Source of the DNA: Fibrobacterota bacterium
Lineage (GTDB): Bacteria; Fibrobacterota; Fibrobacteria; UBA11236
Length of the DNA: 64,000 nt
Reading direction: 5' to 3'
Assembly (NCBI GenBank): GCA_028287505.1
Contig: JAQBPN010000001.1
Span: 1-64,000, forward strand
Position numbers and translations under genes: made by a program. Within the stretch, counting starts at the first letter, position 1. Each line of letters opens with the position of its first letter. Positions 44,970 to 61,041 of the stretch are shown here, piece by piece. The notes beneath the pieces were generated by a model. It searched no databases. It was not told the origin of the DNA and worked only from the letters and a program-made list of their open reading frames with translations.

Positions 44970-45046
44970 CGGGATGTGGCTCAGTCTGGTAGAGCACTAC
45001 GTTCGGGACGTAGGGGTCGTGGGTTCGAATCCCGCCATCCCGACCA
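44970..45046 (+). tRNA. tRNA-Pro (CGG), attachment site of the integrated element
   Basis: Full cloverleaf: acceptor CGGGATG/CATCCCG, anticodon stem CTACG/CGTAG with loop TTCGGGA (anticodon CGG), T arm GTGGG-TTCGAAT-CCCGC. Discriminator A and an encoded CCA at 45044-45046. Its last 29 bases plus one more are repeated at 61012-61041, so the element uses this gene's 3' end as attB and keeps it intact. Confidence 0.96.
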
Positions 45047-46262
45047 ACTTTTCCCCTTGTATATCAATGACTTGCGAAGATTCCTGTGCACCCGTGCCAA
45101 CTGGGTGCCAAGTTTCCATTATGGGCTTTTCCTGGGTTTTCTCGATTTCCGGGTAGATGCCGAGCACCAGAGGCCGCTGTGCGGACTGAATTCGGGCGAT
45201 GCGCTCCCGCAGATAAAGCCGAGTGGTGTCCACTTCGGAGTGCCCCATCAGGTCCGCAATCGCAAATTCGCTCACGCCCCCGCGCTCCAGGTGGGTTGCC
45301 GTGCTGGCGCCGAGGCCGTGGAAGGTGCGTTTCAGTCCATCCTTCTCCGGAGGGATGCGGGCCCGCTTCAGGTCCCGGCGGAAGAACTTGATCGCGTTGT
45401 TTCGGGAGATGCTGGTTAAGGGTTCTTCTGGATCCCGACCAAACGTGTCTTCCCAGAGCCAGCCGAGGAGCGGTTGGGGAACGGGCACGAAGGCTTTCTT
45501 GGGGTCGCGGGACTTGATCTCCATGTAGTCGGCCAGGATGCCGCCGCGGACCCAATCCATCGATTTTACCTTCAGGTCCCGGATGGCGGAGCGGCGGATG
45601 CGGCACCAGTAGGCCAGGCCGTAGATAATTCTGCGCCTCGGGGTCACCGCGTCCATGAGGCGACGAATCTCGGCGGGCTCCAGGTCGCCGTGGATTTGCT
45701 TGGGCGTGGTGTCCAGGCCGGGCCAGATGGCTAGGGGATCCTCGGCCATGAGCTTGCGGGACTTGGCGTATTTGCAAAAGCCCGTGAGGAACCGAGCCTT
45801 GTTCTCCACCGTCGCCGGCCGGGAGCCTGCGGCGAGCATGGCGGCGACTTGGTTTTCAAAGGGCAGCAGCTTGATGTCCGTGACCGCTTTCAGACCCAGG
45901 GCGGCCGTCCAGCGTTCCAACTCCACGTTGGCCTGCTTGATGGTCTTCTTGCTCCAGCCGGTGCCTTTCTTGCCGCCGTAGGTACTGCCCCAGGAGATGT
46001 AGCCGGGGAAGATGGATTTGATCGGCTGTTCGGTATTCACCGCGCGGCCGACGTCCAAGTTGTATTGGCGCTCCTCTACCCGGTCCACGATGCGTTGAGC
46101 GTGAGCCAGAGTCAGCTTTTCCGTCCGCAGGCCTTCCCCGCTCTTGGGGATGTGTGTGGGCCACTCTACTCCCTTGGGCGGGACTACCCGGTATTCCAGA
46201 TATTCCCCACCCTTCGCGCGCAGTCGCGTCTTGAGGTAGATGGAAAAGCCTTTGTACTTCAT
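44997..46262 (-). CDS. int: Tyrosine recombinase (integrase) with altered RII box
   Basis: A 421-residue integrase. An N-terminal arm/SAM-like domain is followed by the catalytic domain from about residue 200. Arg I lies in CRIRRSAIRDL, the beta-hairpin Lys in MEIKSRDPKKAF, and His III and the Tyr nucleophile in LMGHSEVDTTRLYL. The second box, normally HxLR, reads FHGLGAST, so the second catalytic Arg is Gly. The stop lies inside the tRNA-Pro gene, so the last residues (GMAGFEPTTPTSRT) are read from the antisense of the tRNA. Activity is uncertain. Confidence 0.9.
   Translation of the reverse strand: MKYKGFSIYLKTRLRAKGGEYLEYRVVPPKGVEWPTHIPKSGEGLRTEKLTLAHAQRIVDRVEERQYNLDVGRAVNTEQPIKSIFPGYISWGSTYGGKKGTGWSKKTIKQANVELERWTAALGLKAVTDIKLLPFENQVAAMLAAGSRPATVENKARFLTGFCKYAKSRKLMAEDPLAIWPGLDTTPKQIHGDLEPAEIRRLMDAVTPRRRIIYGLAYWCRIRRSAIRDLKVKSMDWVRGGILADYMEIKSRDPKKAFVPVPQPLLGWLWEDTFGRDPEEPLTSISRNNAIKFFRRDLKRARIPPEKDGLKRTFHGLGASTATHLERGGVSEFAIADLMGHSEVDTTRLYLRERIARIQSAQRPLVLGIYPEIEKTQEKPIMETWHPVGTGAQESSQVIDIQGEKLVGMAGFEPTTPTSRT
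45018..45047 (+). repeat. Left attachment site (attL core)
   Basis: Thirty bases covering the T arm, acceptor and CCA of tRNA-Pro plus one A, identical to 61012-61041. The flanking bases differ on both sides. Confidence 0.93.
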
Positions 46263-47857: not shown

Positions 47858-48347
47858 TCGAATTCCTCTCATGGCGATGGCGACGTTTTGAGAGACAGTA
47901 GAAGTGCTGCTATCAATAACGGCAAGCAACCGATTCAAACTGCTTCGCACGCGAAACATCAATTCCTGGCGGGGATTGGATTCTGCCGTATAGCTGAGGG
48001 AGCGACCGAAACCTGGACAGGTCGGTCTGGAAGAAGATGGGATTATATCAAATCTCGAAATGGCGAAATTCCAGCCGATTCATCAAAATCAGGTAAGTTC
48101 AAATCGGGATCTACACGTTTCTACACGCGAATGTCGAAGACATGAAAAAACATTCAGAGGTCAATTCCTCACCCGAAACCAGGGATGCGACCCTCCAGAA
48201 AACCGCCGATGCCTCAATGTTTATAGGAGCGGCGGGCACGCAAATGGCTTTCGAGGTATGACCCCGCGTGAAAATTATGGTCAAGGAAGTCTATCAAGTA
48301 GGTAACGGAAAGATACCGTGCCCTTTTGCGATGCCGTGCCGATTCCG
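47858..48347. other. Control region upstream of the replication-integration operon
   Basis: About 490 bases without a convincing gene; a plus frame at 48060-48305 lacks a ribosome-binding site. A short direct repeat, CTACACG, occurs twice three bases apart near 48111-48127. The region should hold the leftward promoter and could hold the origin of the element. Confidence 0.45.
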
Positions 48348-48623
48348 TTAATATTTCGCCATTTTTAAAAAGTTCGATTTCAGTTCACCAGGCTTCACCA
48401 CACTTTCTTTTTCTTTTTCCACTTCACTCGCTTCCACCTTATTGCCCTTAGCGACGAAGCCAAGGACGCAGTGGCTCCATTGGACGAGGCTGAAAGGGGG
48501 CGATTTAACACCCCTACCCCCGGCTGAGACCAGGATGTCGTTCACCTTGGCATCGATAGCCTCGCGTGGGGTGATAGCGGCTCTGTCTGGAACATAGTCC
48601 GGACGGCCTACTCTCTTCACCAT
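48348..48623 (-). CDS. Hypothetical small protein
   Basis: Not recognised. It has 91 residues with ATG at 48623 but no clear ribosome-binding site. The N-terminus GRPDYVPDRAAITPREAIDA looks protein-like; the C-terminus is charged (VEKEKESVVKPGELKSN). It lies alone between the control region and the plus operon. It may be spurious. Confidence 0.35.
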   Translation of the reverse strand: MVKRVGRPDYVPDRAAITPREAIDAKVNDILVSAGGRGVKSPPFSLVQWSHCVLGFVAKGNKVEASEVEKEKESVVKPGELKSNFLKMAKY

Positions 48624-48780
48624 GAAACATGAACAGAAAACCCCTTTCTATGGGGGTCCGGGGGGCCAATCTAGAAGGCTACCTGGGAAGCTCGCCCAAC
48701 TGCCCGCCGACACATTTAAACATGACTTGAAGTCCGGTACCAGAGACGACAATACCCATTCGGTGAAGGCCTCTTAAGCC

Positions 48781-51624
48781 ATGGCCGCATCCTGGCTCCC
48801 GAACAACCTGAACCTCTCGAAATTGGGCCTCCCGACCAATTTGCCTCCGATCAGCTTCTCCTTGCCACCCGCGAATCCGGCGCCGGGAACGGTGAACCAG
48901 CCCGCGCCTGTGGCTCCCACCGCCACGAAGCCGTCGGCCAATATCCAGGGATTCGCCCCGGCCGTCACCGTCCCGAAAGTGGGCTCCAACCCGTTCAACC
49001 CCCTGTCCCCCGTGGCACCCACAAGCAAGAGCAGCATCCTGAACCCATTCGGCTCCATCCCGTCCATCCCCGGCGTTTCCGTTTCCCCGGGCCAGACACC
49101 GCCCATTGCCGCCATCAAGCCGCTCGCAGCCCCCGTGCCGAGTTTCGTTCCGACCTCTCTGCCCGCGCCCGTGATGACCATGGACACGGCGCCCAAGCCC
49201 ACAGGCATGGTGAGCATGCCGCCGCCCATCACCATGGACACCGGTCCCAAAGCCACGGGGATGACCGACACGACCCCGAAGGCGCCGCCCATCACCATGG
49301 ACTACAAACCGCCCGTCACGCCCGTGGGGGTGACGCCGGAGGTTAAGCCGCCCGCCCCGGTCGTGAAGATGGATGCGCCGGTCGTGGCCACCGACTCGAC
49401 GAAAACGGGCGTGACGACGGAGAATGCGCCCGCACCCGTCACCGATCCAAACGCACCCCCGCCGCCCTCGCCGTTCAACGAGACCCTGACCAAGTACATG
49501 GACACGCTGAACAAGTGGGCCGAAGGCATGCCCGATCAGCAGTACAAGAACGCGCTGAACCAGATCATCACCTCCAGCGCGCTCATGAACTCGGCGGAAA
49601 CCGACGCTCTGCAGATGCAGATCAACCAGGACCCGAACCTCCGCGGCCAAGGCGCCGGCCTCGCCATGATGCAAATTCTGGCCCGCGACCATGGATTCAA
49701 CCTGGACCAGGCCCTGGCCAAAGCCTCCGGCGATTCCCTGGACCGCATCATCTCCATGCAGAAGTACGGGATCGAAGGCGGCACCAGGCTCGTCACGGCC
49801 ATGCGTGACGCGAAGCTGCAGGACGCGAAGATCGCGCTGGACAACGCCCAACTGGCACGCGACAACCAGATCGAGGACGCAAAAATCCTCCGGGACAACA
49901 CCAAGAGCGACATCAACACACTGACCAGCAACGGCCAGTTCGACGCCGCAGCCGCCGCGATGAACAGCTACATGAAGGACGCTTTCCCGGGCCTGGACCT
50001 GAACATCACCGGAGCATCCTTGAAGTCCCGCGACCCGCAGGAATTGACGAAGATGACGCAGAAGCTCAGCTTCATCAAGGACTTGATCGGGAAGAACCCG
50101 GGCGCCGCGCTCCCGCTCATCCGAACAATGATGAGCGACCCAACCTACGACGGTTATTTCCCCGAGGGCATGACCGCCGAGCAGGTTTCCAGCGCCTTGG
50201 CCACGGGCCAGATCAGCGAGAACACCGTCCAGGCGAACACGCTCAACACCCAGATCAACGCCTTCGCGCTCCCCGGCGCCAATGGAAAGAGTCAGTCCTT
50301 CGACGAGACCGGGAACCTGTACCCCGAACTGTTCCGCCTCCAGGGCCGCGATGCCGTGAAGGAGGGGCGCAAGCTTGACGTAGCGGACGTGAACGCCATC
50401 CGCGCCGCCGAGGGCCTGCCCGCCTTCGCCAAGGATTCCCAGGGGAATCTCGTTGATGAGAATGGCGTACCCCTGGACGATCAGGACTACACCGAACTCG
50501 CCTACCGCAAGGACTACTACGACAAGCAGCGGGCCGCGAGCACGAAGCCCTGGGAGCAGATGCGGAACCAGATCCTCGACTCCCCCATGGGCAAATACTT
50601 CACCGACGAATCCCTGTATCCCGGGGCAAACGACTCGTTGAGCAAGTTCCTGATGGCCTACAGCCTGTCGGCGGATGCCTTCACGAAGGACCCGCAGACC
50701 AGGGAAATCGTGCCGAACTGGGACAAGCTGAACCTCAGCCTGAACAGTCCCGAAATGTGGCCCATCTTCCACAACTGGCCCACGGCCGTGTTCGGGAGCG
50801 ACGGTGCCGTGATGAAGGATGCCGCGGGAAAGGATATCTCCACGCCCGGCGGCCACGTTTACGGCGAGATTGGACCGGATGGTCAACCCATCCTCTCCAC
50901 GCCCCAGGACCAGGCACTCGATTCCAATTACTTCGCCTACCGCAGCAGCGGGGGCACGCTGGATCCGAACCAGTGGTACTACGCCACCCAGGGCGGAAAG
51001 GCACAACCCGATCCCACGAAGATTCCGGCAGGTCTGAAAAACGGTGAGGATTTCTCCAAGGTGGGGGAAAACCTTAGCATGGACCTTACCCCCAAGAATA
51101 CGGGGGTAACTCCGGGAAGCTCCGGCGATATCACCAAGAAGTTCAGCGATTATGTCACGGCCACGGCGGGGCTTACCCCGGACGCCGCCGCAGAAGTGAC
51201 GTCCTGGGCAAATACCATGAACAACGCCTACGCGAATATCCCCTCGGGCAAAATGACAAAGCTCACAACGGGTGCGGGAGACGATTTCGATATCGGTATC
51301 GATAGGCTCAAAGCCAGAGGTATCGCCCAGGGCACGCTCGACACGTTCGTTTCCAAAGACTCCATCGCAAACGGTGGCACTTGGGCAAACCTCACCCATA
51401 TGGGCGGAAGTCACTACGAGTATTTGGGCACCCCCGAGTTCGCCACCTATACCATCTATGCCAAACTGCTCAAGAGCGGCATGAGCGAAACCGAAGCCAA
51501 GGCCGCCTTCACGACGCTAGTGGGCAAGGACAGAGCCGCCGCCGCTTTGCGCCTCGAAGATCCCAACACCGCCGGATACGACAAGATCACCGCGGATTTG
51601 AATAAGGTGGAGTCAAAACAGTGA
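48781..51624 (+). CDS. Large element-encoded protein, phage internal/ejection-protein-like
   Basis: Not assignable to a named family. The 947 residues begin with a 230-residue Pro-rich region containing repeats of the type ITMDTGPKATGM (residues about 135-190), then a long helical part (QINQDPNLRGQGAGLAMMQI, AKLQDAKIALDNAQLARDNQ) and a mixed C-terminal half. No signal peptide. Size, composition and its glycine-zipper partner downstream resemble DNA-ejection or internal virion proteins of podoviruses. A 911-codon open frame on the other strand is a shadow. It overlaps the next gene by four bases. Confidence 0.6.
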   Translation: MAASWLPNNLNLSKLGLPTNLPPISFSLPPANPAPGTVNQPAPVAPTATKPSANIQGFAPAVTVPKVGSNPFNPLSPVAPTSKSSILNPFGSIPSIPGVSVSPGQTPPIAAIKPLAAPVPSFVPTSLPAPVMTMDTAPKPTGMVSMPPPITMDTGPKATGMTDTTPKAPPITMDYKPPVTPVGVTPEVKPPAPVVKMDAPVVATDSTKTGVTTENAPAPVTDPNAPPPPSPFNETLTKYMDTLNKWAEGMPDQQYKNALNQIITSSALMNSAETDALQMQINQDPNLRGQGAGLAMMQILARDHGFNLDQALAKASGDSLDRIISMQKYGIEGGTRLVTAMRDAKLQDAKIALDNAQLARDNQIEDAKILRDNTKSDINTLTSNGQFDAAAAAMNSYMKDAFPGLDLNITGASLKSRDPQELTKMTQKLSFIKDLIGKNPGAALPLIRTMMSDPTYDGYFPEGMTAEQVSSALATGQISENTVQANTLNTQINAFALPGANGKSQSFDETGNLYPELFRLQGRDAVKEGRKLDVADVNAIRAAEGLPAFAKDSQGNLVDENGVPLDDQDYTELAYRKDYYDKQRAASTKPWEQMRNQILDSPMGKYFTDESLYPGANDSLSKFLMAYSLSADAFTKDPQTREIVPNWDKLNLSLNSPEMWPIFHNWPTAVFGSDGAVMKDAAGKDISTPGGHVYGEIGPDGQPILSTPQDQALDSNYFAYRSSGGTLDPNQWYYATQGGKAQPDPTKIPAGLKNGEDFSKVGENLSMDLTPKNTGVTPGSSGDITKKFSDYVTATAGLTPDAAAEVTSWANTMNNAYANIPSGKMTKLTTGAGDDFDIGIDRLKARGIAQGTLDTFVSKDSIANGGTWANLTHMGGSHYEYLGTPEFATYTIYAKLLKSGMSETEAKAAFTTLVGKDRAAAALRLEDPNTAGYDKITADLNKVESKQ

Positions 51625-52355
51625 GCAAGAAAAAAGTCACCGTCACCCTCGACACCAGCGATCCGCTTTCCACCGATCCGGGATCGACGGACCTGTCGCT
51701 CCCGCCCCCGATCAACCCATTCCAGCCGCAATTGCAGCCGTCGCAGCAGAACACGGGCCTGGACTCCATGCGCCTCCAGATGCCGATGGTGAACAAGCCT
51801 TCCGACCTGGCTCCGACTCCAACCGTGAAGCCTGCAGCCACCCCGCCGGTATCCGGCATGGACCAGGCCGCAGGATATCTCGCCCCCGTCGCCGCGGGTT
51901 TCTCCGCCGGCAGCCAGACCCAGCCCACCACCAATGCCGGTGGCGCTGTAATGCAAACCGTGGGCTCCGGGATCGCAGGTGCGACGGCCGGCGCAGCCCT
52001 GGGCTCCGCCGTTCCCGGCATCGGCACCGCCATCGGCGCGGGAGTTGGCGGCCTTGTCGGTCTCGTCTCCGGCGGCATCCAGTCCTACATGGGCCTCAAG
52101 GAAGCCCGAGCCAACAAGCGCGCCCAGGAAAAGGCCATTGCCCAGGTCAACAAGCAGAACGCCGAGCAGCAGGCCTACGACCGCTCCCAAGCCGCGCTCA
52201 AGCGCTCCGATACCCTGGAGCAGGCGCGGTACAACCGGAAACAGACCGCTATCGCGTCCCAGTGGAAGGCCATGCAGGCCACCATGGATATCCTGAATAA
52301 GAACATGAACCAGGACGAGAATATCAAGTCCCTGTTCCTCGCGGGAGGCCGATAA
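51621..52355 (+). CDS. Glycine-zipper plus coiled-coil protein, ejection/pilot-protein-like
   Basis: A 244-residue protein. A Pro/Gln-rich N-terminus is followed by a glycine-zipper membrane-active segment (IAGATAGAALGSAVPGIGTA then IGAGVGGLVGLVSGG, about 115-155), and a long charged helix (KEARANKRAQEKAIAQVNKQ onward). This order is common in phage proteins that enter the envelope during DNA delivery (P22 gp14-like, microvirus pilot proteins). The start is GTG 51621, overlapping the previous stop (GTGA). Confidence 0.55.
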   Translation: MSKKKVTVTLDTSDPLSTDPGSTDLSLPPPINPFQPQLQPSQQNTGLDSMRLQMPMVNKPSDLAPTPTVKPAATPPVSGMDQAAGYLAPVAAGFSAGSQTQPTTNAGGAVMQTVGSGIAGATAGAALGSAVPGIGTAIGAGVGGLVGLVSGGIQSYMGLKEARANKRAQEKAIAQVNKQNAEQQAYDRSQAALKRSDTLEQARYNRKQTAIASQWKAMQATMDILNKNMNQDENIKSLFLAGGR

Positions 52356-53344
52356 TGCCCGATCTGATGATGCCGGCCGCCACGCCTATCCGAGGATTCG
52401 GCGTCAGCGGCGCCGGGATTCAGGATGCCGTCAATGCCGGTGCGCCTGTGGTGCAGGGCGAAGCAACCATGAAACAGATGGGCGAAGAGGAGGAGACCAA
52501 GCAGAAAGCCATCGCGTATCGGAAGCTCCTCCATGCCGGCGCACCCATGATGAAGCAATACGCGGCAGAAATCGGGAAAGAGTTCCCGGAACTGGGGAAC
52601 CAGCTTTCCGCCGAGGCCGACCAATACGGCACGTTCCTCCAGGATCCGAATCTGGACGCCGCCCAGGCCGAAGAGTACACTCACCACTTCTACGACGGAG
52701 CGAATAACAGGTACAAAGTCCTGAAGGATGCGAAAGCGCCAAAGCCAGCGGTGGAGAAGCCGGAAAAACCTTGGGCACCGACCAACGCCCAGGAAGCCGA
52801 GGACTGGTATCGCTTCAAAAAGGAAACGGATTCCGATTACAAAACGCCCACGGGAGGCCGAGGCGGGTCCGCCGCCGATCGCGCGCGCGCCGAAAAGCGG
52901 ATGACCGCCCTCAGAAAGATCCCAGCTCTCTGGAAACAGATCGAAGAACTGCGGATATCTGGAGGAGAAATCCCCTTGATCCCAGGTAAGGACGAGCCGG
53001 ATATGGTCGCTTTTAGGCAGCAAATTCCCAGAGCCTTGCGCACGAAATGGGATGACCTTCGGAAGGAATTAAACAAGGTTGAAGCAGATGCTGGCCTTGA
53101 GGCGTCCAAGGAAATCATGGGCCCGGGTATAGAGAAAAGCGCCAGCTACAAGCTTTATAAGGCACCGACGGCCGGCGGAGAAACGGGGACCCGCGCACCC
53201 TCTCCGGCCGCGCCCGCGAAATCCCAGAACAGCGTCGATGCTGCCCTGGAATGGCTCAAAGACCCGAAAAGCAAAACCCATCCGCGACGCGCCGACATCC
53301 TTGCCGAGGTCCAAAAAGCTGGGGTGGATACCAGTGGACTTTGA
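52355..53344 (+). CDS. Element protein with N-terminal GFGV motif
   Basis: Not recognised. The 329 residues start with ATPIRGFGVSGAGIQDAVNA, a motif shared with the secreted protein at 56854-57483. Long acidic/basic helices follow (EEEETKQKAIAYRKLLHAGA, EFPELGNQLSAEADQYGTFL), then a second helical region and an Ala/Pro linker near the end. No signal peptide. The ATG shares one base with the previous stop (TAATG) after GGGAGG. It is the third gene of the internal-virion-like operon. Confidence 0.6.
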   Translation: MPDLMMPAATPIRGFGVSGAGIQDAVNAGAPVVQGEATMKQMGEEEETKQKAIAYRKLLHAGAPMMKQYAAEIGKEFPELGNQLSAEADQYGTFLQDPNLDAAQAEEYTHHFYDGANNRYKVLKDAKAPKPAVEKPEKPWAPTNAQEAEDWYRFKKETDSDYKTPTGGRGGSAADRARAEKRMTALRKIPALWKQIEELRISGGEIPLIPGKDEPDMVAFRQQIPRALRTKWDDLRKELNKVEADAGLEASKEIMGPGIEKSASYKLYKAPTAGGETGTRAPSPAAPAKSQNSVDAALEWLKDPKSKTHPRRADILAEVQKAGVDTSGL

Positions 53345-53573
53345 TCCCGACGCATTTCTCCAAGAACGAGCCGCCGATGACCCGATCCCCGTGGAAGGGG
53401 TGCCGCGGTATGCTCTACCCTCTGGCAAGGATTGGGCGGCCGACACGATGTACAAGAGAAAGGCGGAGACCGGGACGAGCAATGCTGCCACCGAAGTAGC
53501 CCCTCCTCGAACGTCCGAAACGCTTCCCGGCCAGGATAAGATAAGGACGGGAAGCGAAAATACAAAGCACTAA
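53334..53573 (+). CDS. Short protein with DPDAFL motif
   Basis: About 79 residues from GTG 53334, which overlaps the previous stop and follows GGGGTGGA. The protein opens with DFDPDAFLQERA; short DPDA[FY]L peptides are, in my memory, frequent in internal virion or transglycosylase proteins of podophages. The rest is low-complexity and charged. It could be a truncated remnant of a larger virion protein. An ATG at 53238 in the same frame would lengthen it but has no Shine-Dalgarno site. Confidence 0.5.
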   Translation: MDFDPDAFLQERAADDPIPVEGVPRYALPSGKDWAADTMYKRKAETGTSNAATEVAPPRTSETLPGQDKIRTGSENTKH

Positions 53574-53662
53574 TTGCGCCAGAAGATACCGGCCTTTCAG
53601 GTGTCGCCACGGTGCCCCGTGGCGGTCCCTATCCCCTACTGAAATTTACATGCCAAATAGAT

Positions 53663-55336
53663 TCAGGCGATCTCTTTTTTGCCGTCAAGAAGGGCGCGAA
53701 TAGACGTGTGAATGGCGATTGTCGCATTGTTTAGGCCCCGGACAACTGCAACGGGGTAAGGACATTTTGACTCGCCAATCATATTCTCGGCCGCCAACGA
53801 AGCTGTCACCATGGCGGCCAATTGGTCTTCCAAGAGAGCTACGCCAAGCGTTCCCTTTTTAGGCTTGGCATCTCCAATACCAGTAGCTTCGATCACGGCA
53901 TCGCCAACGCCAACAATGGGAGCATTTTTAAGAGCATCCAATACTTTTAGGTTCCTTTCGACATCTTGGATTTTCCGCCTCTCAATTTCAGCCTTTTGCT
54001 CCGATTCACGCTTGGAAATTACAAGGTTCATATAGGCGTTAAAAATTGGTTGGTGCCATGCCTTGGGTAGCGCTTCGTATGCATCGCGAAGAATCCGACC
54101 ACGGTCCGTAAATGAGTTCAGCGCGTCACCGTCAGGGTTTATCTTATCGATTGCGGTCGCCACTGCCGCGGCAATCTTGTCCGCAGACGCTGAGTCAAAT
54201 ACCTTCTTGAGGTAATCCGACCACTCTTCGGTTGTCGTTGAAAAGCTCTCGGCGGCCTCATGCGCTTGCGCTTTGGGCGTTGGTTGCTCCTGGGATCTCC
54301 TACGGTCTTGATCGTCGTTCCGCTCCCGCTCTTCTCTTGCATCTTTGATTTTATTCGCTTCTGTATGGATTCGGGCGTGCCACGCCTCGGGGATTCCCGA
54401 AGCACTCAATAAACCAAAGCCCCCCGCCTTCCCAAGACTTTTACCCCAGGTCGGCAAGATCCGATCTAAGGCCACACCGGCTTCCTTTGCGATGGTTTCC
54501 GGCTTGGCTTGGTCGAATACCTCGCGGAGATAGGCGGGGCAGTCATCCGAAATCTTCGGCAAACTCTCCTTTGCGAGAGCAGCCCTGCCGGCCTCGGCGT
54601 ACTCTGCCGGGACCCGCTGCGCCAAGTCCGCGATGTATCGCCGCGCACTGGCTTTGCGAGCGCTTTCAGTTAAGTCCTTGTTCTTGTTATCGAATGCGCC
54701 CATGTAATGCCAAATAAACTTTATTTGAAATTCAAGAGGTGTACCCTTTACCGAGTCGCTGAGTTCCTCGGGAGTCGGAATCGGAGACATTTCCAAGACC
54801 AGATTGAGCGCGGAAATGTGGCGATCTTCCCCGGGTCCGTCTTTGAGGACGTTCGCGACTGACTGCATGGCCACAGATCGAGCTTTCCATGCCTCAGCAA
54901 CAAGGCTGGCTTGCCGGGCAGGGATGCCGGAAGCAGCTAAGGCGCGGCGAACGGCATTTCTATTGGGATCTCCGGCCTGATGGGCAATGATACGATCGAG
55001 AATGTCAGAAACCTGCTTCCCCGCCTTCGAGTTCTTATAGGCGTTGCGGATGGCGCGGGCAAGGGGTGAAAGGGTGGCCTTGCGTGAACCCTTGGCAGTC
55101 TTTTCCTTGGCTTTCGTAGGGGACGCCAACTCCTTTGGTCCCTTTACTACACTCCAATCACCGTCCTTTGCCTTAGGTGCGGGGATGGTTGCTCCGTTAG
55201 TGTGGTGGCTGATAATCATTGGTTTCCTCCTGGTTGTTTTGGCTTCGGCTTCCGTCCTTCCTTTGGGGCGGTTCAGGGAAATTCCATTTTTGGAGATGGC
55301 CGGCGCCTCTGTTTCTTTTCCTATTTTCTTGGTCAT
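53663..55336 (-). CDS. Unknown 557-residue protein with three degenerate helical repeats
   Basis: Not recognised. A basic disordered N-terminus (1-95) leads to helical units at about 105-155, 265-330 and 372-440 that share a pattern of an F/LDR-type helix and a GIPEAWH/LPKAWH-type segment (compare YLREVFDQAKPETIAKEAG with YLKKVFDSASADKIAAAV). The C-terminal quarter is mainly small residues (VGVGDAVIEATGIGDAKP). The start ATG lies eight bases after AAAGGA. It is the last gene of the operon facing the CI-like repressor; an early or anti-host protein is possible. Confidence 0.65.
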   Translation of the reverse strand: MTKKIGKETEAPAISKNGISLNRPKGRTEAEAKTTRRKPMIISHHTNGATIPAPKAKDGDWSVVKGPKELASPTKAKEKTAKGSRKATLSPLARAIRNAYKNSKAGKQVSDILDRIIAHQAGDPNRNAVRRALAASGIPARQASLVAEAWKARSVAMQSVANVLKDGPGEDRHISALNLVLEMSPIPTPEELSDSVKGTPLEFQIKFIWHYMGAFDNKNKDLTESARKASARRYIADLAQRVPAEYAEAGRAALAKESLPKISDDCPAYLREVFDQAKPETIAKEAGVALDRILPTWGKSLGKAGGFGLLSASGIPEAWHARIHTEANKIKDAREERERNDDQDRRRSQEQPTPKAQAHEAAESFSTTTEEWSDYLKKVFDSASADKIAAAVATAIDKINPDGDALNSFTDRGRILRDAYEALPKAWHQPIFNAYMNLVISKRESEQKAEIERRKIQDVERNLKVLDALKNAPIVGVGDAVIEATGIGDAKPKKGTLGVALLEDQLAAMVTASLAAENMIGESKCPYPVAVVRGLNNATIAIHTSIRALLDGKKEIA

Positions 55337-55564: not shown

Positions 55565-56185
55565 TCAAGCGACACCGCCATTCTCAGCCTTTGCATTGTC
55601 CTCTCCGGTGTTCCTAAGGAATATTTTAGCCAATCCCAAAAGCGTAAGGTCCGTTGACCGCGGACCGTCCTTTGGGAAAAAGGTCCGCTCGATGAATTCC
55701 CGAATTTCCGAGGCCGGGCTGCCTTGCAGGGCCAATAGTTCCCGCGTTCTTGCAGCTCCCGCCTCATCTTCCCTGGCAGAGTTTGCATTCGCTTCGGCTT
55801 GGAGTGCACGCGCTCTTTCGATCGAGACATCAACCCGCGATTCTCCTGGATGAGTGGGAAAAAATCCCTCATCATGTTCTGCTGGCACCGTCGGATTTGT
55901 CCAATCAGCTGCTATGGCCGACTCAACCGTTTCCCACGTTTCTGCAGGCTCGGCTGCCCGGATCTTTTTCGCTGCCCCTTGGAAATGGGAAAAATGGGCC
56001 AAAGCCTGGGATTGAATCAGGGCCGGGAATCGCGCAGTAAGGTCCACCGCCATCCGTGGGGAGGGCCTAGGGCAAAGGTTGTTCAGGGCTGCTGCTATTG
56101 ATTCGCCGGCTTGGCCGGCTGGGGCATTAATGTAGGCCAAGAGAATAGCTTGCTTCTCCTTGGCCTGGCAGTCTACCTTGCTCAT
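55565..56185 (-). CDS. Unknown 206-residue protein
   Basis: Not recognised. The helical sequence begins MSKVDCQAKEKQAILLAYIN; the middle is Trp/Glu-rich (PAETWETVESAIAADWTNPT) and the C-terminus ends in REFIERTFFPKDGP and LTLLGLAKIFLRNTG. No signal peptide or metal motif. The start overlaps the stop of the 76-residue gene (ATGA), so it belongs to the same operon, about 230 bp ahead of the 557-residue gene. Confidence 0.6.
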   Translation of the reverse strand: MSKVDCQAKEKQAILLAYINAPAGQAGESIAAALNNLCPRPSPRMAVDLTARFPALIQSQALAHFSHFQGAAKKIRAAEPAETWETVESAIAADWTNPTVPAEHDEGFFPTHPGESRVDVSIERARALQAEANANSAREDEAGAARTRELLALQGSPASEIREFIERTFFPKDGPRSTDLTLLGLAKIFLRNTGEDNAKAENGGVA

Positions 56186-56412
56186 GCTCGCCCCCTCACA
56201 AACAAGGTGGGCCTGCAGGGCTTGTCCTCGCCCCAAACCGTTTTCAGGGCCTTCTCGAAATCGCGACATGCATTTTGAAGGCCAAAAGCTATCTGGCCCT
56301 CCTCATTCTCTTCGAGGACAGAGACAGCGGCGCGGACACAGGTATGAAGTACAGCTATCCCATTTTCAATGGCATCGGCCTGTTCTATGGTCATGTTGGA
56401 AGGGATTCCCAT
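56182..56412 (-). CDS. Small acidic protein, first gene of the operon opposite the repressor
   Basis: Not recognised. It has 76 residues (MGIPSNMTIEQADAIENGIA, then VSVLEENEEGQIAFGLQNAC). The ATG at 56412 is eight bases after GGAGG; another ATG two codons upstream is too close to that site. It is expressed from the region that contains the palindromic operator, so it should be controlled by the repressor at 56511. Confidence 0.6.
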   Translation of the reverse strand: MGIPSNMTIEQADAIENGIAVLHTCVRAAVSVLEENEEGQIAFGLQNACRDFEKALKTVWGEDKPCRPTLFVRGRA

Positions 56413-56853: not shown

Positions 56854-57483
56854 CTACTTGGTGATGCCTTTCACCCTTTTCAAGCATAGCCATTCGTTCG
56901 GATCGAACTCCCCGTTCTTCTTTTTGGAATAGGCTTCGCGGTGATAAATCTCACAGGCACTTTCCAGCGTGTGAATATCGCTCGCAGAATCAGCAATAAT
57001 TCCCTCAGCCCATTCAATGGGAGTTTTTAGTCCATCCTTGGAATTTGATGGCTCAGGCTTTTCTTGGTGCTTCGGCTTGTTGTATTTAGTCTCTTCATCC
57101 ATAAGGCGCGACTCCGACTCAATCTTGGGGATTTCCGAATCACTCTCCTTCTGCTTCCTTGCGTTCTCCTGCTGTTGGCGTGCGGCGTCGGCGAAAGGTT
57201 TACCAGCCGCAACGGCGCTATTAATCCCTTCTGCTGTGACGCCAAATCCCACGATGGGTGCGAACTGCGGGGTGGGAACAGGAACATAAACTGTGGCTGG
57301 CCGGGAAGGTTGGCTTTCAGCATTTGGCTTTTCCTCAGAATAGATACATGCCCCGTGCGCTCGGGCAGCGTCCCTGCGGCAATCGTTCGCGTCATAATAC
57401 CAACAATTCTTTCCCGATCCAGTCACCACGCAGAAGGGGGCGCAATATCCGGTTGCTGCACACAAAAGGATTATCCGAATCAT
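56854..57483 (-). CDS. Secreted Cys-rich protein with GFGV motif
   Basis: Not recognised. A 209-residue protein with a signal peptide (MIRIILLCAATGYCA), a Cys-rich head (CVVTGSGKNCWYYDANDC) reminiscent of small secreted DUF3551-like proteins, a Pro-rich linker, then FAPIVGFGVTAEGINSAVAA, which matches the N-terminus of the protein at 52355. A charged Gln/Glu/Lys-rich helix and a Trp/Cys-containing end follow. ATG 57483 is six bases after AAGGAG. It stands alone on the minus strand. Confidence 0.65.
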   Translation of the reverse strand: MIRIILLCAATGYCAPFCVVTGSGKNCWYYDANDCRRDAARAHGACIYSEEKPNAESQPSRPATVYVPVPTPQFAPIVGFGVTAEGINSAVAAGKPFADAARQQQENARKQKESDSEIPKIESESRLMDEETKYNKPKHQEKPEPSNSKDGLKTPIEWAEGIIADSASDIHTLESACEIYHREAYSKKKNGEFDPNEWLCLKRVKGITK

Positions 57484-57748
57484 GTCAACTCCTTGCTTGC
57501 TAAAGAGTAGCAACACGGATAACGTTGGTAACCTGTCGAAGAATTTGATAGTTGGCGCAAAGCCTATACTCCCTTTCGAAATGGGGGGGCGAATTGGTTA
57601 ATGCCTACATCAGCCACATGGCGGCGGGAGTCTAGGGTTTTGAGAGTTTTGCGCCTGGCGTTCGGCAATGGCATTGATGCGATTCTTGGCGAAGCGAAGG
57701 CGCCCAGACGCGACCATCTGAGTGGCAAAACTCCCAGGTCGGGTGGTT

Positions 57749-58438: not shown

Positions 58439-58930
58439 GGAATCTCCTTAGTGATTTCGAAATGGCACGACGAGGGATCTCAAAGGTGGTATTTCTTTCA
58501 CCTGTGATGGCGATAACAGTAAAGCCGGAAATGGGAAGGTACGCACAAAGCGTACGCGAGGTGTCGGGAACCTTTACGGCAGAGCAAGGTTCGCCGGGGT
58601 CATGTTCCGTCCCCGTTCGCGTTGTACCTTCCCATATCTGGGAGGGTAAGCAAAGACTTTGGCCAGTCTGGAATCGTGCGTGGGGTCACGGACAGGCCGA
58701 GGAAAGTCGGATAACTTAGGCAAGGCCCTACAACCAAAGGAGTTAAAGGTGCTTTGCGTGTTACCTCTACACAATCTGAATTTTCGGCAAATTCTTGCGG
58801 CAACACCCGTCGGAATGCTTTACAATGAAAACGCTAACCCCCAGTCCCATGGGAACGGATTTTAACTAGACTTATGGGCACTACAAATGGCGTTAAAGCA
58901 CGGAAAAAGGCAAAAAGGAAGGGAAGGCGC
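58439..58930. other. Non-coding stretch with nested inverted repeats
   Basis: About 490 bases without a credible gene between the secreted protein gene and the Panacea antitoxin gene. It contains the inverted-repeat block described at 58531-58635 and presumably the promoter of the toxin-antitoxin pair. Confidence 0.55.
58531..58635. repeat. Nested inverted-repeat block
   Basis: A perfect 12-bp outer repeat, ATGGGAAGGTAC at 58531-58542 with its complement at 58624-58635, encloses GTACGC-ACAAA-GCGTAC (58539-58555) and CGGGG/CCCCG (58595-58615). It could fold as a branched RNA or cruciform, or serve as an origin or operator. Confidence 0.6.
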
Positions 58931-59455
58931 ATGACCGTAGACGCTTTTATCCCGGATAAATCAGGGGCTTCCAAGCTGGCCGTGGTGGATTCATTGGATC
59001 TTGCGGCGTACATCGTGGCCAAGCTGGGCGCCATGTCACATCTGAAGCTCCAGAAGCTGCTGTACTATTGCGAAGCCTACCACTTGGCCTTTTTCGAAAA
59101 GTCCATCATCAAGGATGAGTTCCAGGCTTGGGTCCATGGGCCTGTTTCGGTTAAGGTGTGGGTTGCCTTGAAAGACAAAGCCAACGTCCACGACTTTCTT
59201 ACCGTGAAGGCCGATCAGAAGCCGGCCCTCATCAAGAAGATCAAGGACGAGGTATCCAAAGAACAGTTGAAGCTGATTGATGATCTTCTCTCTGCCTTCG
59301 GCAAGAAGACCTCGTTTGAATTGGAGGCTCTGACGCACGAGGAGCAACCTTGGATCGAAGCTCGTCGCGGCACACCTCCGAACGAGAAGTCGAAGACCCT
59401 GCTGTCCAAACGAACCATGAAAAGCTTCTACCAGCGCAAATATTTCGCCGCCTGA
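58931..59455 (+). CDS. Panacea-domain (DUF4065, SocA-like) antitoxin
   Basis: A 174-residue protein. The Panacea core is clear: MSHLKLQKLLYYCEAYHLAF, DEFQAWVHGPVSVKVW and a C-terminal LTHEEQPWIEARRG. In studied examples this domain neutralises diverse toxins by direct binding. ATG 58931 follows AGGGAAGG; an ATG at 58874 would add 19 basic residues but lacks such a site. The stop overlaps the start of the next gene (TGATG), the usual arrangement for a toxin-antitoxin pair with the antitoxin first. Confidence 0.8.
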   Translation: MTVDAFIPDKSGASKLAVVDSLDLAAYIVAKLGAMSHLKLQKLLYYCEAYHLAFFEKSIIKDEFQAWVHGPVSVKVWVALKDKANVHDFLTVKADQKPALIKKIKDEVSKEQLKLIDDLLSAFGKKTSFELEALTHEEQPWIEARRGTPPNEKSKTLLSKRTMKSFYQRKYFAA

Positions 59456-59877
59456 TGGGCCAAAAAAATCGCTACGGCGGCGCGGCGAAAAATCGCTTTG
59501 AAGGTATGGCCGACGTGGCCACTCCGTCACGCGCGCGACACCTCAGCTTTAACTTCAAGGACTTGGACCCTAGCCAAAGCAAAACCTTTCTCGATTGGGA
59601 AGCTAGGGGCTGGCTAGCGAAGGCCTGCGAAAGAATGAAGGGCTACTCCAGTCAAACGGTCCCCCAGTGCTACGGGAAAAAATTCAAAATTTACGATTCT
59701 TGGCCAGGCCATTCGAAGTTCAAGCCTCCTCGTCATGTTATCGAAGATGCCCAGTGGGCATCAATGCATATCCAGGGGCAGCAATGCCTGGGTGGCCACA
59801 TGATTGGAGATGTGTTTTACGTGGTCTTCCTTGATGAAGAACACGACCTCTGGCCGACCGAACTCAAACATACGTAA
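59455..59877 (+). CDS. Putative toxin paired with the Panacea antitoxin
   Basis: A 140-residue protein. I do not assign a family. It contains LSFNFKDLDPSQSKTFLDWE, the segment YDSWPGHSKFKPPRHVI and WASMHIQGQQCLGGHMIGDV followed by a FYVVFLDEEHDLW strand, compact features fitting a small alpha/beta toxin fold. The ATG shares one base with the antitoxin stop, so it is translated only after the antitoxin. Assignment as toxin rests on the partner and size. Confidence 0.6.
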   Translation: MGQKNRYGGAAKNRFEGMADVATPSRARHLSFNFKDLDPSQSKTFLDWEARGWLAKACERMKGYSSQTVPQCYGKKFKIYDSWPGHSKFKPPRHVIEDAQWASMHIQGQQCLGGHMIGDVFYVVFLDEEHDLWPTELKHT

Positions 59878-60026: not shown

Positions 60027-60347
60027 CTATGCCGCCAGAAGGCGCTTCCGGACCGCTGGCACGTCCCGCAGAAGTTCGGCCAGTACCAACATGGGTTCCG
60101 GGATTTCCCGCTTGCGGCCCTCCCAGCTCTCCACCGTGCGTTTGCTGACCTGGAGGGCCTCCGCCATCCCGGCTTGGGAGAGGTGCAGTTCATTCCGGAT
60201 GCTTTTGAATGCGTCCACGCGCTTGATCTGGCGCAAGGTATTCACGGCCGCGCCCTGGAACTCTTCTTTTTCGGCCTTGGTCGGATTCCGGGGCTTGGCT
60301 CCTGCCAAGCTCTTCTGGAGCTTCTTTTCCATTCTGCTCAGTTTCAT
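60027..60347 (-). CDS. XRE-family antitoxin
   Basis: A 106-residue protein whose C-terminal half is an HTH of the HigA/antitoxin type (IRNELHLSQAGMAEALQVSK then RTVESWEGRKREIPEPM). The N-terminal half is basic and helical. The start ATG is two bases after the BrnT-like toxin stop and follows AGGGA. It likely neutralises that toxin and represses the shared promoter. Confidence 0.8.
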   Translation of the reverse strand: MKLSRMEKKLQKSLAGAKPRNPTKAEKEEFQGAAVNTLRQIKRVDAFKSIRNELHLSQAGMAEALQVSKRTVESWEGRKREIPEPMLVLAELLRDVPAVRKRLLAA

Positions 60348-60349
60348 TT

Positions 60350-60586
60350 TTATCCCTGCTTCATAATGGTGTGAAGGAAATACCCGCGCTTGGTCTTGCG
60401 AAAAGGAACCAGCCAAACTGTGCGGTTGATTGAAACCACAAAAACATCCTGGCCGGGATGGTTCACGCTCGCGTTATCCAAGATTTTGAAGTTCCCGGCA
60501 AGGATGCACCGGACCACCTGCTCGAAAGAAACACCGCGCTCTTCTTTAAGCTTGCTGTTCTTACCGAGGTTCCAGGTGAACTCCAT
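60350..60586 (-). CDS. BrnT-like toxin
   Basis: A 78-residue protein matching the BrnT-like RelE-fold toxins: MEFTWNLGKNSKLKEERGVS, the strand HPGQDVFVVSINRTVWLVPF and the end TKRGYFLHTIMKQG. Such toxins cut mRNA. ATG 60586 sits next to GGAGG; the longer upstream frame lacks family sequence. Toxin-first order with an XRE antitoxin is common in this group. Confidence 0.75.
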   Translation of the reverse strand: MEFTWNLGKNSKLKEERGVSFEQVVRCILAGNFKILDNASVNHPGQDVFVVSINRTVWLVPFRKTKRGYFLHTIMKQG

Positions 60587-60594
60587 GCCTCCAA

Positions 60595-60613
60595 TATACG
60601 ACAATGTAGTATA
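60595..60613. promoter_or_regulatory. Palindrome upstream of the BrnT-like/XRE pair
   Basis: TATAC and GTATA face each other nine bases apart, immediately upstream of the toxin ribosome-binding site, a fitting autoregulatory site for the XRE antitoxin. Confidence 0.5.
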
Positions 60614-60908
60614 TATGGCAACGGGAAAAGAACGGGGAAAAGAGAAGGTACTGGTTAAAGGCAGGAGGCGGAAAGGCGTTGCCAAGCTTTTGCCCCATGG
60701 AAGGCTTTACAGCCATGAAACACCCGCGGACCAGGAAAGTATCAAGCTGAATCCCCGGAACGCCTCTCCCGCCTCTCAAGTGCCGTGAGAAGCCAGGCGA
60801 GATCCTCGGCCGGCAGGGCCAACAACCGCTTGAGAACACCCGCCCAAGCCGGGTCTCCCAAACGGTGCCAAACCAGTGCCAAAATCTCTTTCCCGGTTTC
60901 TACCGGCG

Positions 60909-60998: not shown

Positions 60999-61011
60999 AA
61001 AGGGGCGGTGC

Positions 61012-61041
61012 CGTGGGTTCGAATCCCGCCATCCCGACCAA
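61012..61041 (+). repeat. Right attachment site (attR core)
   Basis: Thirty bases identical to 45018-45047, corresponding to the 3' end of tRNA-Pro. Left here as a tRNA fragment without the 5' part. Confidence 0.93.

Follow-up and report, generated by a model that had tools for sequence, protein, structure and literature searches.

Introduction

Few parts of the virion are understood as poorly as the ejection proteins, whose rapid divergence outpaces homology searches. In podoviruses, their strongly diverging genes form a small operon that ends in the largest open reading frame (ORF) (PMC8954989). The operons of T7 (gp14-gp15-gp16), P22 (gp7-gp20-gp16) and the Pelagibacter podophage Baldr (gp17-gp20) consist of overlapping genes; a short membrane-prone or helical protein is followed by helical proteins, and the last gene is the largest one in the relatives considered below. 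Here, we analyse a small operon of likewise overlapping genes, which lies on a prophage-like element in a 64,000-nt stretch of DNA from a Fibrobacterota bacterium (positions 1 to 64,000 of contig JAQBPN010000001.1, assembly GCA_028287505.1). This stretch is called the window in the following. The operon quite probably encodes an ejection module, and with moderate confidence the element is interpreted as a 16-kb defective (cryptic) prophage, which stems from a temperate podovirus-like phage of Fibrobacterota. The window adds an example from this phylum, for which a complete-looking reference cassette is available.

Compared to the podovirus operons, the order and size of the window genes differ in two respects: ORF1 (947 amino acids, aa) precedes the gene for the glycine-zipper protein, and ORF4 (79 aa) is not the largest gene. 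Moreover, no sequence homology of the window proteins to the described ones was shown. In Baldr and in the Fibrobacterota prophages, the ejection operon is located together with head and tail genes, whereas the window element contains no head genes. Phage polyvalent proteins (Iyer et al. 2017, PMC5512222) fill the ORF4 position of the relatives and carry LPD3 or PBECR3 domains there; in contrast, ORF4 of the window is a short stub without such a domain.

Phage satellites (P4-like, PICI, cfPICI, PLE, PICMI, AH14b) also possess integrase, excisionase-like, replication and repressor genes on about 16 kb. A satellite integrates, brings its own integrase and regulatory genes and lacks a complete set of virion genes, and the window element has this composition. 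Unlike in the satellites, genes for packaging or for redirecting a capsid were not recognised in it, no helper was detected, and an ejection-like operon was not found in the described satellites. In incomplete prophages, it is preferentially the genes for capsid, portal and terminase that are lost, whereas integrases persist (PMC7744054). The window element likewise has an integrase and lacks terminase, portal, capsid and lysis genes; compared to such cryptic prophages, however, its remaining genes are unusually intact.

Results and Discussion

An integrated element carries four overlapping genes

The element comprises 15,994 bp and is delimited by 35-nt direct repeats, which are identical in 33 of 35 positions (two mismatches). 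The integrase gene abuts the tRNA-Pro gene. A preliminary description of this DNA had proposed an integrated element with replication and integration genes; the attachment (att) repeats, the integrase and the replication initiator confirm this proposal. The initiator shares 47% identity with a protein of Paenibacillus phage Harrison over its N-terminal 132 aa (tblastn). The coordinates of all features are given in Table 1.

The operon occupies positions 48781-53573 of the plus strand, and its four ORFs were correctly recognised in the preliminary description; each of them overlaps the next. The G+C content at third codon positions (GC3) is 0.83, 0.81, 0.67 and 0.61 for ORF1 to ORF4, compared to 0.76-0.84 for host genes and about 0.53-0.57 for the genes to the right of the operon, up to about 58.1 kb. 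Judged by these values, all four ORFs appear to be real genes, and ORF1 and ORF2 resemble nearby host genes. The first ~230 aa of ORF1 are Pro-rich and helix-free. The remainder is predicted to be helical, though the underlying model is poor: in the absence of relatives, AlphaFold2 was unusable, yielding a mean predicted local distance difference test (pLDDT) score of 38 for ORF1 and of 47 for its C-terminal 163 aa. The fourth gene is present and overlaps ORF3, but its start had to be revised. Instead of the ATG at 53238 assumed initially, the GTG at 53334, which is placed just ahead of the ORF3 stop, appears the more likely start codon from the sequence and would lead to a protein of 79 aa.

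Related prophages contain cassettes of the same layout

A search with ORF2 in 168 Fibrobacterota genomes led to two cassettes, and these led to further ones. The organisms bearing them are named Chitinispirillia, Chitinispirillales and Fibrobacteria metagenome-assembled genomes (MAGs). The shared layout consists of a large ORF1, a short glycine-zipper/coiled-coil ORF2, a helical ORF3 and ORF4, and the genes overlap in a manner similar to those of the window. The lengths of ORF1, ORF2, ORF3 and ORF4 are 309, 107, 607 and 2741 aa in locus L053, 433, 102, 825 and >926 aa in L088, 346, 113, 297 and >1209 aa in L024, and 374, 139, 491 and 1813 aa in L023. ORF4 contains an LPD3 domain in L088 and L023, and a PBECR3 domain in L024. 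The slot of the window ORF4 is thus the one that is filled by a polyvalent protein of 926-2741 aa in the relatives.

In L053, a contig of 38,971 bp, a major head protein (phrog_334, E 7e-5), further genes and an endolysin are followed by ORF1-ORF4, all on one strand, and then by host genes. The MAG that contains L024 harbours on another contig (L083) genes for a terminase-like protein, a portal (P22_portal, E 5.5e-28), a scaffold-like protein, a capsid (PF13252, E 1.5e-4, slightly below the cut-off) and tail proteins; L083 and L024 presumably belong to one prophage. The ORF4 protein of L023 is homologous to gp20 of Baldr (E 7e-8, 21.6% over 790 aa), whose gene sits between those for tail tubular protein B and the tail fibre. 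This is the usual place of internal virion proteins. Furthermore, the giant ORF4 of the relatives opens with a tandem pair of short helix motifs of the D-x-x-[FI] type (TPDEIINEML/SPDEIINRML in L023, SRVDAIAEMFR twice in L053, SNLDKFLADYG/SNLDKFLADFG in L088).

Because the same layout is found next to head genes, and because a protein in the ORF4 slot is related to Baldr gp20, an ejection module is the best reading of the window operon. The features that point to it are architectural: the gene order, the overlaps, a zipper/coiled-coil protein in second and a helical protein in third position, and a last gene that opens with a short motif of the D-x-x-[FI] type. Two features of the operon do not conform to it. 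ORF4 is the smallest of the four genes, whereas ejection operons end in the largest one, and the window operon is not linked to head or tail genes as are those of L053 and L083/L024. The search for the same four-gene set near capsid genes, which the preliminary description had recommended, was successful for the layout beside the head genes of L053 and L083/L024, but not for sequence homology to the window proteins.

A short helical motif that occurs twice within the first ~65 aa was also observed in giant polyvalent or ejection proteins of quite different phages, and its sequence differs from phage to phage. The respective loci are L023 (3047-8488), L053 (9825-18050), L088 (3-2780) and L034 (1739-19327). 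Such a repeated motif could be a packaging or docking signal.

The window proteins have no detectable homologues

A pattern scan of 84,980 species genomes and searches of phages, plasmids, viral contigs and the 168 genomes of the phylum revealed no relatives of ORF1. The same holds for ORF3 in the phylum genomes, viral contigs and family profiles, and neither protein matched those of the relatives' cassettes. A match of ORF3 in L018 (E 0.001) is due to chance, as it runs antisense within a region of the host that includes a ribosomal-protein-like gene. An ORF2 match in L025 was discarded as well; only ordinary host genes are located there. The comparison of ORF3 with Baldr gp17 gave a score of 62 at a shuffle mean of 33; this was one of many pairs tested and is only a lead. 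For the ORF4 peptide, comparison with phages yielded only matches with E values of at least 6.

ORF2 initially appeared to be homologous to ORF2 of the relatives (hhalign 94.5%, hidden Markov model E 2e-9). In order to control for the zipper, the comparison was extended by a fourth cassette, by a set of further proteins with such zippers and by 300 shuffled versions of ORF2 in which the position of the glycine zipper was preserved. ORF2 ranked under many of these shuffles and under unrelated zipper proteins, and the homology was dropped. Because the controls score as well, nothing more than a glycine zipper can be claimed for the match. The matches of ORF2 comprise zippers of many sorts, namely those of OmpA-like lipoproteins, tape measures and LeoB. 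The match to the defence protein LeoB spans the zipper and the following helix and was treated as a zipper effect. Among known ejection families, only an internal virion protein (phrog_805) was hit, at E 0.025. The resemblance to the ejection set of podoviruses, which had been noticed from the sequence alone, is consequently one of architecture, as in prophages with head genes; it does not extend to ORF1 and ORF3, which are matchless, or to ORF2, which performs no better than zipper shuffles.

These results bear on the best surviving alternative, according to which the operon is an unrelated orphan, made up of genes for a membrane-associated or secreted complex or of phage accessory genes, with a glycine-zipper protein by chance. 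ORF1 and ORF3 without detectable relatives of any kind would fit such an operon, as would an ORF2 that matches many sorts of zippers and is equalled by zipper-preserving shuffles. However, the operon agrees with the podovirus cassettes in its gene order, in its overlaps, in the place that the zipper gene takes and in the D-x-x-F/I-type motif at the start of the last gene, and the surroundings are clearly phage-like. An unrelated operon is therefore considered rather unlikely.

The absence of head genes and the origin of the element

Profile searches with Pfam, PHROGs and NCBIfam detected no capsid, portal, terminase, tail or lysis families among the proteins of the element. Likewise, a comparison of its six frames with proteins of the related prophages gave no remnants of head genes; the best E value of 0.005 is at chance level. 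Thus, capsid and packaging genes were not found in the element, in agreement with the preliminary description. The same three profile collections recognised no packaging or capsid-redirecting genes (TerS, Cpm, Sid, Psu, TcaP-like) and gave no match for the 557-aa and 234-aa proteins. The genome of the host (6.07 Mb, 98.7% complete) contains neither a P22-type portal nor a homologue of the capsid of the related prophages, i.e. no helper with a related capsid or portal was detected there. The genome's terminase-profile matches have E values of only about 2e-5. As the same ones occur in all five of the five congeners, they are probably ordinary ATPases.

As a defective prophage, the element would have retained a lysogeny module (integrase, excisionase-like protein, replication initiator and CI repressor), toxin-antitoxin-like cargo and three intact internal-virion (ejection) genes. 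Its terminase, portal, capsid and tail genes would be gone, and the largest ejection/polyvalent protein would be cut to an N-terminal stub, ORF4. A possible site of the lost head and packaging module is the low-GC stretch immediately 5' of ORF1, which is where a head module is expected. In the ancestor, the products of ORF1-ORF4 may have become part of the procapsid and may have left it before the DNA, forming a channel through the cell envelope. In the present headless state they would most likely be idle, unless, upon infection by a related phage, they are incorporated into its particles or spoil them.

Several observations speak against this interpretation. All remaining long ORFs of the element are intact and ORF1 and ORF2 are strongly coding, which is unusual for old decay, and no head-gene fragment is left over. 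The hairpin that follows ORF4 is not significant, but would be in line with the natural end of an operon. In addition, the sequence homology of the window proteins to ejection proteins could not be demonstrated. A close complete relative that displays the head loss directly was not found.

The only other headless example found is L023. Its order is tRNA-Arg, integrase, excisionase-like gene, methyltransferase and then ORF1-ORF4 on the opposite strand. The N6/N4 methyltransferase (PF01555, E 4.5e-35) begins at profile position 62, i.e. the first ~61 positions are missing, and it butts onto the ORF1 start; at about 11,500 (G068:C59), the truncated gene and the beginning of the ejection operon are fused head-to-head. 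The headless state of L023 is therefore due to a deletion or an assembly joint, and L023 no longer counts as independent evidence that headless elements form a class. Another locus of this genome, L057 (276-7526, G068:C16), contains a broken integrase beside a broken polyvalent gene and is regarded as a more decayed relative. The Chitinispirillia MAG of L023 also harbours an apparent Mu-like prophage (L084, G068:C27) with portal/MuF-like, sheath-like and tape-measure-like genes.

The preliminary description had suggested a new kind of satellite. Such an element would rely on a helper for capsid, terminase and tail but encode the ejection proteins itself, and its DNA would thereby be injected by its own machinery; if it does move in the particles of another phage, this would be a new satellite strategy. 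The integrase, excisionase-like, replication and CI-type repressor genes are intact, the att sites are clean, ORF1-ORF3 are intact and have a strong coding signal, and the size resembles that of known satellites such as AH14b with 16.8 kb (PMC4936722). L023, too, has integrase and excisionase-like genes beside ORF1-ORF4 but lacks head genes, and its MAG contains no related capsid or portal. However, its junction bears the truncated gene, the ORF4 of the window is a stub, and neither a helper with a related capsid or portal nor packaging, capsid-remodelling or TerS genes were recognised. In addition, neither viral contigs nor the 168 genomes of the phylum yielded sister elements, and the open-licence literature gave no precedent for a satellite that carries ejection proteins. 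Relatives do carry the cassette inside complete-looking prophages, an observation which the preliminary description itself had named as contradicting its proposal. These findings lend no support to the proposed new kind of satellite, which we consider improbable. As it stands, the locus illustrates that a headless satellite look-alike can arise by deletion from a prophage.

Finally, it is very unlikely that the element is a domesticated remnant whose ejection-like proteins protect the host, e.g. by entering assembling podophage particles and making them non-infectious: although ORF1-ORF3 are intact without a head module and antitoxin/toxin-like cargo genes lie nearby, neither a promoter-like site above chance nor a defence family other than the glycine-zipper match was found, and the arrangement is not seen repeatedly in relatives.

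Further genes of the element

Table 1. Positions of the element's genes, repeats and other features in the window
Feature	Position	Strand	Remarks
Tyrosine integrase, 421 aa	44997..46262	-	PF00589, E 9e-12; phrog_1, E 2e-25
attL	45013..45047	+	Repeat copy 1, over 3' end of tRNA-Pro(CGG) 44970-45046
Excisionase-like/HTH_17 protein, 118 aa	46259..46615	-	PF12728, E 5e-4; phrog_66 excisionase, E 5e-4
Replication initiator, 298 aa	46736..47632	-	phrog_9474, E 6e-39
Possible regulator, 107 aa	47639..47962	-	Only a weak match, phrog_18890 transcriptional regulator, E 0.13
Low-GC stretch, 818 bp	47963..48780		GC 0.51, no convincing gene
ORF1, 947 aa	48781..51624	+	Helical after a Pro-rich N-terminus (~1-230); no relatives found
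ORF2, 244 aa	51621..52355	+	Glycine zipper (~114-150), then charged helix; C-terminus ...NIKSLFLAGGR
ORF3, 329 aa	52355..53344	+	Helical; no relatives found
ORF4, 79 aa from GTG 53334	53334..53573	+	Begins MDFDPDAFLQER; 111 aa if ATG 53238 is used
9-bp hairpin shortly 3' of ORF4 stop	53604..53625	+	No T run; fold z-score only -0.97
557-aa protein	53663..55336	-	Convergent with ORF4; no family, no relative found
234-aa protein	55565..56269	-	No family match
Small ORF, 78 aa	56182..56418	-	Divergent from CI repressor
CI-type repressor, 100 aa	56484..56786	+	PF07022 Phage_CI_repr, E 3.5e-6, above curated cut-off
220-aa protein	56854..57516	-	Cys-containing N-terminus; short motif in common with ORF3 N-terminus
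SocA/Panacea antitoxin-like cargo gene	58874..59455	+	PF13274, E 1e-22
Helix-turn-helix antitoxin-like gene and BrnT-like toxin gene, cargo	60027..60685	-	Family matches
attR	61007..61041	+	35-nt repeat copy 2, 33/35 identical

The 220-aa protein and the N-terminus of ORF3 (52355-52510, plus strand) share the pattern PI.GFGV..GI..AV.AG.P. Their comparison gave a score of 72 at a shuffle mean of 39, and one of 1000 shuffles scored as high. In the cargo region (58874-59877, plus strand), a 175-aa ORF in another frame overlaps the SocA/Panacea antitoxin-like gene and may be its partner.

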